A stretch of DNA of 64,000 nt from Acidobacteriota bacterium (lineage in GTDB: Bacteria > Acidobacteriota > Thermoanaerobaculia > Gp7-AA8): positions 1-64,000 of the forward strand of contig QHVT01000025.1 in assembly GCA_003223645.1 (NCBI GenBank), read 5' to 3'. The notes beneath the pieces are model-generated. The model did no database searches, had not been told where the DNA came from, and was given only the letters and a program-made list of their open reading frames with translations. The position numbers and the translations under genes are program-made. Shown one piece after another: positions 19,540-24,537 of the stretch. How positions within the stretch are numbered: the stretch's first letter is position 1; each line of letters begins with the position of its first letter.

Positions 19540-19856
19540 ACCTCGACAACGATCTGAGACGCGCACTGCGCCGCGAGCCGCCGCCGGCCGGCTTCGCGGG
19601 GCGTGTGATGCAGCGCATCGGTGGAGCGGCGGGCTCTCAGCCCGCCGAAACCCGACGGCGGACCAAGAGTCCGCCGCTCCAGTGGTGGCGCGCGGCGGCG
19701 GCCACGGTGATGCTCGCCGCGGTGCTGGGCGGCTATCGCATTCACGAAATCCGCAAAGGCGAGCAGGCGAAGGAACAGCTCCTTCGCGCGATGAGCATCG
19801 CCAGCGAAAAGGCCGCGTACGCGCAGCAGCAGGTGCGTCAGATCGGATCGCACTGA
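19536..19856 (+). CDS. Small single-pass membrane protein, likely anti-sigma factor
   Basis: 106 residues. The short cytoplasmic N-terminus (MNLDNDLRRALRREPPPAGF) resembles the start of small anti-sigma proteins encoded with ECF factors. One membrane helix lies at about 50-68 (WWRAAAATVMLAAVLGGYRI), followed by a short helical tail. Translational coupling to the ECF gene supports the role. Residues 29-49 (GGAAGSQPAETRRRTKSPPLQ) are encoded by a palindromic element (19621-19681) almost identical to one in an intergenic gap at 50499, so an inserted repeat has become part of the linker ahead of the membrane helix. Confidence 0.7.
   Translation: MNLDNDLRRALRREPPPAGFAGRVMQRIGGAAGSQPAETRRRTKSPPLQWWRAAAATVMLAAVLGGYRIHEIRKGEQAKEQLLRAMSIASEKAAYAQQQVRQIGSH
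19621..19681. repeat. In-frame palindromic element in the anti-sigma-like gene
   Basis: The left half (19621-19646) matches 50499-50524 at 25 of 26 positions (GTGGAGCGGCGGGCTCT core), and the right half ends in the inverted CCGCCGCTCCA. The reading frame of the host gene runs straight through. Confidence 0.85.
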
Positions 19857-22620: not shown

Positions 22621-23513
22621 GCCGGAGCCTGCCCCGAGCAGAGCGAGGGGTGCAAGTCCGCGCGCTGAAAAAATCGTTCGGCTCGCACGCGGTGCTGCAG
22701 GGCATCGACCTCGACGTCGCGCCGGGCGAAGTGGTCGGTCTCATCGGACCGAACGGCGCGGGGAAGACGACGTTGATGTCGTGTCTCCTGGCGTTCCTTC
22801 ATCCGAACGCGGGCGAGATCACGATCGACGGCTTGCCGAATGACGATCTGCGCGTGCGGCGGCGCACCGGATTCGTGCCGGAGCGGATGAACTTCGATCG
22901 CCGCGCCACCGGCTACTCGTTCCTTCGCTACATGGCCGGACTCGCGCGCGTGGGCAATCGCGAAACAAAAGTGCGTGCGATGCTCGAGCGGCTCGGCATC
23001 GCCGGCGCCGCGGATCGCCGCTTGTCGCAATATTCGCGCGGCATGCTGCAGCGCATCGGCATGTGCCAGGCGTTGATCCACGATCCGGACTTTCTTTTTC
23101 TCGACGAGCCGACGTCGGGACTCGATCCCAACGGCGTGCTGTTGGTGCGCGATCTCATCGCCGAACAGAAGCAGCGCGGCGCGGCGGTGCTCCTCAACTC
23201 GCATCAGCTCGCGGAAGTGGGGAAGGTGTGCGACCGCGTCTTCTTCCTCAATCGCGGCGTGATCGGACGCGAAGAGACGCTGCGCCACGCCGATCGCATC
23301 GTCATCGCGATCACGATGCTGCCGGGGTTCGACGCGAACGCGATCGCGCGCATCGCCGGAAACGCGCCGAAGGAGAACGTCGTCATCGCGACGGTCGAGA
23401 CGGAAGCGGACATCGCGCAGATGGTGCGCGAGGTGATCGCGACGGGCGCGGGCGTGATCGACGTCCGCAAGCACACGGCCGACCTCGAGGGCATTTTCCG
23501 AGGTGTGGCGTGA
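22617..23513 (+). CDS. ABC transporter ATP-binding protein
   Basis: 298 residues. Walker A GPNGAGKTT, a Q-loop region, signature LSQYSRGMLQR and Walker B FLFLDEPTSGLDPNG are all present, with an H-loop in LLNSHQLAEV. It belongs to the ABC-2 export ATPases (CcmA/NatA/DrrA type). The C-terminal 80 residues form the extra regulatory domain usual in this group. Start ATG 22617 overlaps the previous stop. The stop TGA at 23511-23513 ends the first copy of a 15-bp direct repeat that flanks an inserted element; before insertion the ATPase and permease probably overlapped by GTGA. Confidence 0.93.
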   Translation: MSRSLPRAERGVQVRALKKSFGSHAVLQGIDLDVAPGEVVGLIGPNGAGKTTLMSCLLAFLHPNAGEITIDGLPNDDLRVRRRTGFVPERMNFDRRATGYSFLRYMAGLARVGNRETKVRAMLERLGIAGAADRRLSQYSRGMLQRIGMCQALIHDPDFLFLDEPTSGLDPNGVLLVRDLIAEQKQRGAAVLLNSHQLAEVGKVCDRVFFLNRGVIGREETLRHADRIVIAITMLPGFDANAIARIAGNAPKENVVIATVETEADIAQMVREVIATGAGVIDVRKHTADLEGIFRGVA

Positions 23514-23611
23514 GAAATAGATGGCGGATGGCGGATGGCGGATGGCGGACCGCGGGTTGGCTTGCCGTCTGCCATCTGGCATCTGCCATCCAATCACGAG
23601 GTGTGGCGTGA
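23499..23611. repeat. Palindromic insertion flanked by a 15-bp target duplication
   Basis: The 15-mer CGAGGTGTGGCGTGA occurs at 23499-23513 and again at 23597-23611. Between them lie 83 bp holding GGCGGAT direct steps and an inverted match (GATGGCGGATGGCGGA against TGCCATCTGGCATCTGCCATC). The first copy contains the ATPase stop, the second the permease GTG start. This is the best evidence in the window that such elements insert. Confidence 0.9.
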
Positions 23612-24330
23612 ACGGGGTGGTGGTGGCGGAGACCGTGCGGCGGTGCGTGACAAGCATCGCGTACTGGGCCTTCGTCGCGCTCCTCGCGATCATTTCGCTT
23701 GGCCTCGCGCGCTTCGACCGGCCGGGCACGGCGTGGCCATCGCTCGTGTCGCTGCTCGCGTACATCATCGGCTGCACGGCGATCGGTCCCGAGTTCTCGT
23801 CGGGCACGCTGCAGCTGATTCTGACGAAGCCGGTGAACCGCTCGGTCTATCTTGTGTCGCGCGTCGCGGGAGTGGTGAGCGCGATCTGGATCGCCGCGCT
23901 GATCGCGTTCTCGTTCGAGTTGCTCGGCCGCGTGTTGTGGGTCGGCGCGGTGCGTCTCGACATCATCGGCGCGATCCTCATCAACACGTTCGTCGACACG
24001 CTGCTGATCTGCGCGCTGCTGGTCTTTTTCGCCAGCTTCACGCGCGCGTACTTCAACATCGTGATCTACATGGTGCTGATGATCGGCCTCGGCGTCGCGC
24101 AGGGGATGGTCTCGATGTTCCGCTCGATGAGCGGCACGCTCGGCGCGTGGCTGGCGACACACGACATCGTCGACCGCATCCTTGCGTCGATCAACAGCAA
24201 TCTCTTTCCCGACGCACCGCCGCGACTCGACTGGCACTGGCTGCTGATGATTGCGTCGAATGCGGCGATCGCGATTGTCGCGGCGTGTTTTATCTTCCGA
24301 AGACGCGAGGTTCCGTATGGGGCGGACTAG
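23608..24330 (+). CDS. ABC-2 type transporter permease
   Basis: 240 residues from a GTG at 23608, with about six membrane helices. The sequence GPEFSSGTLQLILTKPVNRSVYLVSRV is the conserved cytoplasmic coupling segment of ABC-2 permeases. It would pair with the ATPase encoded just before. I chose the GTG because it lies in the second copy of the 15-bp direct repeat, exactly where an ATPase-permease overlap would have existed. An ATG at 23521 inside the repeat would add residues encoded by the element (MADGGWRMADRG) and is less likely. The substrate is unknown. Confidence 0.85.
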   Translation: MNGVVVAETVRRCVTSIAYWAFVALLAIISLGLARFDRPGTAWPSLVSLLAYIIGCTAIGPEFSSGTLQLILTKPVNRSVYLVSRVAGVVSAIWIAALIAFSFELLGRVLWVGAVRLDIIGAILINTFVDTLLICALLVFFASFTRAYFNIVIYMVLMIGLGVAQGMVSMFRSMSGTLGAWLATHDIVDRILASINSNLFPDAPPRLDWHWLLMIASNAAIAIVAACFIFRRREVPYGAD

Positions 24331-24333
24331 TCA

Positions 24334-24429
24334 TGTGGTGACCGCTGCCCTCAGCGGTCACAGCGCCGCCGATGGCGGCGCCAGCGGCGCCTTGCACCGC
24401 CGCGACCGCTGGGGGCAGCGGTCACCACA
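24334..24429. repeat. Palindromic element after the ABC permease
   Basis: Perfect 17-nt arms TGTGGTGACCGCTGCCC (24334-24350) and its complement (24413-24429) enclose a second hairpin (GCGCCGCCGATGGCGGCGCC). It sits in the gap before the small membrane peptide gene and could serve as a strong hairpin. Confidence 0.9.
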
Positions 24430-24447
24430 ATGTGCGAGGGATTCAGC

Positions 24448-24537
24448 ATGAGCGTTCACAATCAACGCACGGTTCCGATCCTCTACATCGCGATCGCCGC
24501 GCTGCTGCTCCTCGCGCGCATTCTCACGAGCCTCTGA
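24448..24537 (+). CDS. Predicted 29-residue membrane peptide
   Basis: ATG 24448 to TGA 24537 encodes MSVHNQRTVPILYIAI and a further hydrophobic run ending in LARILTSL. A short polar start followed by about 20 hydrophobic residues makes a single membrane helix. The stop overlaps the start of the next gene (TGATG), which suggests translational coupling and argues that the frame is real. Comparable tiny membrane proteins serve as transporter or oxidase subunits, but nothing here identifies the partner. Confidence 0.55.
   Translation: MSVHNQRTVPILYIAIAALLLLARILTSL

Follow-up and report, generated by a model that had tools for sequence, protein, structure and literature searches.

How can a hairpin repeat enter the tightest kind of bacterial gene junction, a 4-base overlap, and leave both genes unbroken? 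This question is raised by a junction between an ABC transporter ATPase gene and an ABC-2 type permease gene in the window, that is, the whole stretch of 64,000 nucleotides of acidobacterial DNA analysed here. The ATPase gene occupies positions 22650 to 23513 of the forward strand (PF00005, E = 9.7e-30) and the permease gene positions 23608 to 24330 of the same strand (PF12679, E = 1.2e-07); the end of the first and the start of the second were also given by a simple purpose-written gene caller. Two exact copies of the 15-mer CGAGGTGTGGCGTGA are present on the forward strand, at 23499-23513 and 23597-23611, separated by 83 bp. No further site was found in the window at up to two mismatches, and at least two such sites anywhere were seen in 4 of 100 shuffles. 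With exact copies and Pfam-supported genes, the original prediction of a 15-mer at both edges of an 83-bp insert between the two genes holds. The stop codon TGA of the ATPase gene (23511-23513) lies inside the first 15-mer, at the ATPase gene end, while the second contains a GAGGTG Shine-Dalgarno site (23598-23603) and the GTG start of the permease gene (23608-23610). The second copy was said to supply the new start codon, and it does so together with the Shine-Dalgarno site. The 15-mer spans the sequence from this site to the TGA stop and the minimum that keeps the signals of both genes is 14 bases, so hardly any shorter duplication could have retained stop, ribosome-binding site and start. 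Across the called genes, Shine-Dalgarno cores are found upstream of 212 of 1370 starts versus 52 of 1370 at the control distance.

The insert itself (23514-23596, forward strand) is composed of GAAATA, six bases linking the first 15-mer to the arm (23514-23519), a left arm of four GATGGC heptads with separators G, G and G (23520-23546), a loop (23547-23563), a right arm of four degenerate YGCCATC heptads (GCCGTC, GCCATC, GGCATC and GCCATC; 23564-23590) and CAATCA (23591-23596). Folded as RNA with both 15-mers it reaches –61.6 kcal/mol (z = –6.05), a value equalled in none of 200 shuffles. The word palindromic, which had been applied to the insert, is thus appropriate for its hairpin fold and not for a perfect palindrome, since the heptads of the right arm are degenerate and the two six-base ends are not complementary to each other. 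A terminator scan gave six hits, none of them on the hairpin element, and a search for known RNA families over 23300-24500 returned ten weak matches, nine to microRNA models and one to an sRNA model, none of them near its gathering score. A second large hairpin (GTGGTGACCGCTGCCC...) is located at 24334-24429, immediately 3' of the permease gene, and is not seen at this place in G001, a genome of the same genus. Elsewhere in the window a run of 21-bp tandem repeats extends from 550 to 1318 with 25 overlapping register positions.

Both genes were searched in 60 genomes, the window's own included; there was some match in 57 and 30 loci were delivered, among which the junction was compared in the seven best homologues (L065-L071). 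The hairpin is absent from the junction in all seven relatives examined. Six of them combine a 4-base GTGA or ATGA gene overlap with a single copy of the 15-bp stretch, and the seventh (L071) has an unrelated, longer spacer instead of the overlap. The search for an empty site in relatives, proposed with the original prediction, was therefore successful in six of the seven. In G001, whose ATPase gene is 78% identical, the two aligned BLAST pieces have exactly 15 bases in common, and the empty-site junction reads CGAGGTGAAGCGTGA. Given the single-copy overlap in six of seven relatives, the window carries a real 98-bp insertion, the sum of the 83-bp hairpin and the 15-bp duplication; when the insert is taken away with one of the 15-mers, a GTGA overlap results, a 4-base overlap as in the relatives with the empty site. 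An assembly artefact is unlikely, because the repeat recurs genome-wide and the relatives show the empty site.

The pattern GATGGCNGATGGC has 967 matches in the window's genome (472 forward and 495 reverse) and the backwards control has none. Its maximum in any of 146 relatives is 12, with 4 in the same-genus G001, and the hairpin repeat made of GATGGCR heptads is species-specific. For the survey of this family 1.80 Mb of the 6.38-Mb genome was read. It contains 69 clusters of at least two heptads, 37 of which are a forward array followed by a reverse array according to a strict pattern; the window copy is outside these 37, its right arm being too degenerate. The hairpins are mostly extragenic, with a median distance of 10 nt to a stop and 53 nt to a start; 21 of the 69 clusters (8 of the 37) fall within called genes and may in part be ordinary coding sequence. 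When 30 simple hairpins were parsed, exactly four heptads were counted in 19 of the left and 14 of the right arms, and the loops, 10-92 nt long, proved mutually unlike, with a few sister pairs sharing parts. The loop of the window copy matches none of these 30 and bears a partial likeness to that of C21:627551. This copy is the nearest kin of the window copy in the 1.80 Mb (86%), followed by C31:111846 (83%). Bases at the ends are common to the three: CAATCA is present in the C21 copy, and AAATA (before the arm) and CAGTCA in the C31 copy. Because sister copies share end bases, the element is copied as a unit. Across the family the outer ends are mostly not conserved, and no conserved head was found beside the GATGGC arms in the outer flanks of 107 arms.

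The bases that separate the heptads bear on how the arms came about. In the inner register 21 of 68 separator pairs are complementary, fewer than the mean of 45% given by shuffling (lower tail about 1%); the outer register has 26 of 68 for a mean of 46% in shuffles (lower tail about 10%), which is not clearly a deficit. These values speak weakly against an origin of one arm by snap-back copying from the other, and that origin was rejected; perhaps the non-complementary separators reflect avoidance of perfect palindromes. Over the 30 hairpins the inner-register separators tend to the non-complementary A opposite C and G opposite T. As for capture of loops from elsewhere in the genome, the longest matches of 28 loops average 13.1 versus 12.2 for shuffled loops. 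A scan of named genomes, among which the window's own record may be missing, returned at least 25 stretches with the GATGGCR hairpin design. Labels among the matches listed are Gemmatimonadota, Phycisphaeraceae, Prevotella, Stagnimonas, Cyanobacteria, Chloroflexales and Akkermansia, which we take to be six or seven phyla. In L174-L198 the design is seen on several contigs of some genomes, and the Prevotella copies have CTGACG...CGTCAG ends.

Is 15 bp then the footprint of the element? A duplication of this length had been put forward as a clue to the mechanism, with other copies lacking duplications as an outcome that would refute it. In exact matching of the flanks of the 69 clusters the window copy scores 15 and the next three clusters 9, and 40 flank shuffles give up to 11. 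With mismatches allowed, three of the 69 clusters score at least 8 versus about 0.4 expected; the two besides the window copy, C5:187516 and C21:527548, are both inside called genes. Shuffles that exclude self-pairs reach at most 11 in 40, versus 14 for the window copy, and when self-pairs were allowed, in a previous run, 1 of 30 shuffles reached the window's score. Compared by eye with G001, the sister copy C21:627551 shows neither duplication nor loss. The same kind of comparison reveals no duplication at C21:615748, where an octad hairpin separates the TGA from the ATG of the TGAATG present in G001. We extended the comparison to 172 hairpins whose arms consist of tandem units, whatever the unit sequence, of which 35 are GATGGCR and the window copy is not one. 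Their exact flanking repeats reach 7, within chance, and with mismatches allowed there is one outlier, scoring 15 versus at most 10 in 20 shuffles. Among non-periodic hairpins of other families, 6 of 262 have at least 9 exact flanking bases versus about 0.5 expected; four of these look like parts of larger repeats, and C4:8623 and C21:286059 remain. A fixed target duplication for the GATGGCR family was rejected, since it is clear in one of 69 clusters only, the window copy. The other 68 have no clear flanking duplication, which is the outcome named beforehand as refuting, and the 15 bp cannot serve as a mechanistic signature of the mover. We read the duplication as informative about which insertions survive and not about the element's own enzyme. 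A lone flanking duplication should not be taken as a transposase signature.

A dispersed GATGGCR-heptad hairpin was inserted at the 4-base ATPase/permease overlap, and we consider it fairly probable that the duplication is an occasional repair copy kept by selection. A copy of the repeat would have entered the overlap of the two genes by the usual route of these hairpins, which presumably leaves no duplication. Occasionally 10-18 bp may be copied through template switching or a staggered break, for example by end joining after a break with long overhangs. A clean insertion into an overlap costs the stop, the ribosome-binding site or the start, unless the element brings them, and so an event with copying could survive; insertions that copy the stretch from the Shine-Dalgarno site to the stop would be among the few survivors at overlaps. 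The duplication would then tell more about selection acting on the target site than about the element's own chemistry, selection being argued from position. Ku is present here, yet it is found in 16 of 20 genomes searched, this one included, and such a widespread protein gives no direct evidence for end joining.

To see whether the arrangement has parallels one can look at the other hairpin-bearing junctions. Stop regions were compared with start regions in 157 such tandem junctions, with gaps of 25-400 bases. The window junction and C21:128485 score 15, the next one 9. In 200 junction shuffles without self-pairs the highest score is 12, reached in 5, while 200 earlier shuffles with self-pairs allowed contained 10 junctions of at least 12 in total and no shuffle had two. 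The element at C21:128485-128579 (in L120) is a hairpin of 9-bp TAGGACNNA units, unrelated in sequence to GATGGCR, and its flanks CGCTGAGGCACGAATGAA and CGCTGAGGCCCGAATGAA (18 bp) are identical at 17 of 18 positions. The first flank copy holds the upstream stop and the second the downstream ATG, both in the register of a 4-base ATGA overlap, the same design as in the window. No alignable orthologous empty site was found for it in relatives, so the duplication is deduced from the sequence itself. Its flanking genes look, in our view, like MacB-type permeases, and the conserved ends of such permeases could repeat by descent. We read C21:128485, too, as a probable insertion with an occasional repair duplication kept by selection, and the recurrence of this solution beside a hairpin of unrelated sequence points to an escape route of general use.

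The hairpin at C21:286059-286117 (L128:8859-8917) makes a third, less strict case; it is non-periodic (GTGTAG...CTACAC) and abuts a 10-bp duplication with a GAGGAG site. The upstream gene, which overlaps the next gene, gains 69 bp at its end without a change of frame. Of three relatives, two have a single similar copy and the third is not clearly alignable; the hairpin is in none. Some direct repeats occur without hairpins as well, since 4 of 287 hairpin-less junctions score at least 10 versus 0.35 expected (best 12). In the sequence read, 146 of 903 called tandem gene pairs overlap by 4 bases. Other elements seem to solve the overlap problem otherwise, several hairpins of other families carrying, by eye, a stop or start in their own ends. 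Hairpins of the GAAGGCA type (e.g. C4:224902, C21:668202 and C21:32464) have the outer ends ATGA...TCAT, and these ends appear to supply stop or start codons at tight gene junctions.

The usual lack of a duplication would also fit a Y1 (REP-type, RAYT) transposase that acts in trans and mobilizes the hairpin without duplicating its target; the 15-bp copy would then be an unrelated local accident. GATGGCR hairpins resemble REP and REPIN elements in the described features of these, being small dispersed hairpins of high copy number and mostly extragenic position (excerpts of PMC2817692 and PMC3116915), and IS200/IS605 relatives make no larger target duplication according to the excerpt of PMC2817692. 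There is one Y1 gene in the window's genome. This single match (C4:52922-53774), however, is flanked not by GATGGCR but by a different repeat, the GTGG-headed GTGGAGCGGCG hairpins. Unlike REP and REPIN, the GATGGCR arms have no conserved GTAG or GTGG head and are tandem heptads, and the loops are mostly unlike. Nor does the number of Y1 genes follow that of repeats, G005 having 15 Y1 matches and 2 pattern matches. On these grounds we find movement by the Y1 enzyme unlikely. The GTGGAGCGGCG hairpin family has members in the window too, near 19618, 26008, 31242 and 50496. Matches to RVT_1 are more numerous here (three) than in the other 19 of 20 genomes, which have at most one each, and G001 has none. 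One of the three, on L212, reads to us like a group II intron protein. As G007 has 151 matches of the related GAAGGCA repeat and no RVT_1, a reverse transcriptase as the mover is neither supported nor excluded. The search for a transposase or reverse transcriptase acting in trans, proposed with the original prediction, gave one Y1 gene and three RVT_1 matches and did not identify the mover.

Slippage duplications of about 15 bp are common, and the 15 bp might have been duplicated in tandem by replication slippage first, with the hairpin entering later between the copies. The direct repeats at hairpin-less junctions described above agree with this order of events. It is, however, quite unlikely in our estimation: two events are needed at one place, both 15-mers are identical, a tandem copy alone is present in none of the seven relatives examined, and the second hairpin, at C21:128485, has the same arrangement. 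Least probable is movement by an enzyme, whether transposase or Cas1-like integrase, that cuts with a fixed stagger of 14-15 bp and for which the 15-mers would be an ordinary target duplication: the exact duplication with its clean empty site fits this, and casposases make duplications of about 14-15 bp, but the test on the family (one clear duplication in 69 clusters) largely refutes it, and a sister copy without duplication, other duplications that are few and measure 18 and 10 bp, and outer ends that are mostly not conserved speak against it as well.

Insertion of a heptad hairpin with an occasional repair copy, the reading we prefer, has to be placed among known repeats. The closest known kind is represented by the inverted pairs of heptameric repeats of Xanthomonas, of the GGGAATC type, of which 70 and 75 pairs were counted in two genomes (Rehm et al. 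2015, PMC4692102; this and the following statements refer to the excerpt consulted). Those pairs most commonly have four units, are on average 28 nt from the end of the upstream gene and are mostly intergenic (PMC4692102). In GATGGCR, too, 7-bp units with some variable positions stand in tandem (69 clusters) and form convergent inverted pairs (37 of the 69), four units are commonest, and the hairpins are closer to the upstream gene end. Unit sequences differ, however. A G-quadruplex formed from GGG tracts was proposed for the Xanthomonas heptamers (PMC4692102), while GATGGCR holds GG at most; lacking GGG tracts, it is outside the GGGAATC family and is filed under the broader heptameric kind only. 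In Xanthomonas the majority of the repeats are flanked by the same genes in the two species, whereas here the same-genus relative has almost none, and an insertion with an empty site or a duplicated gene overlap is not described in the excerpt of PMC4692102. Heptamer arrays are scattered over bacteria, and polymerase slippage has been proposed for them (excerpts of PMC4679880 and PMC4692102). The TAACTGA heptamers of Beggiatoaceae are similar in forming intergenic arrays that are patchy between lineages; these arrays are direct, with a single inverted case reported in the excerpt of PMC4679880, whereas GATGGCR arrays are inverted. MITEs differ from our repeat, which has no constant-length duplication at most copies and no conserved body between terminal repeats, the loops of the 30 parsed copies being unlike. 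Neither a duplicated gene overlap flanking a hairpin of this kind nor a GATGGCR hairpin is mentioned in the titles and openings of abstracts that an open-access library gave for the terms searched.

The window's genome is rich in hairpins of other sequences. In the 1.80 Mb there are 435, of which 172 have arms of tandem units with periods from 6 to 9, their unit sequences including GATGGCR, GAAGGCA, GTGCTGN, GGCTCATA, GGTTGCGC and TAGGACNNA. One may ask whether a single, undescribed process copies tandem-unit-arm hairpins of many unit sequences into gene ends, acting on the hairpin form rather than on a fixed sequence and leaving no fixed target duplication; overlapping genes would be open to it whenever the module that begins with the Shine-Dalgarno site and ends with the stop codon is copied along. 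We put this forward as a doubtful, tentative generalization. Conserved hairpin sites, that is, different hairpins at the same place in G000 (the window's genome) and G001, are striking by eye and were considered and rejected: they occur in 3 of 5 gaps versus 33 of 65 (P = 0.53), not above chance because half of the collinear G000 gaps hold a hairpin. The spread of heptameric hairpins is made testable by the G000/G001 genome pair. The same-genus relative has 15 hairpins in 0.39 Mb, 8 of them with tandem-unit arms, and its unit sequences are shared only in part.
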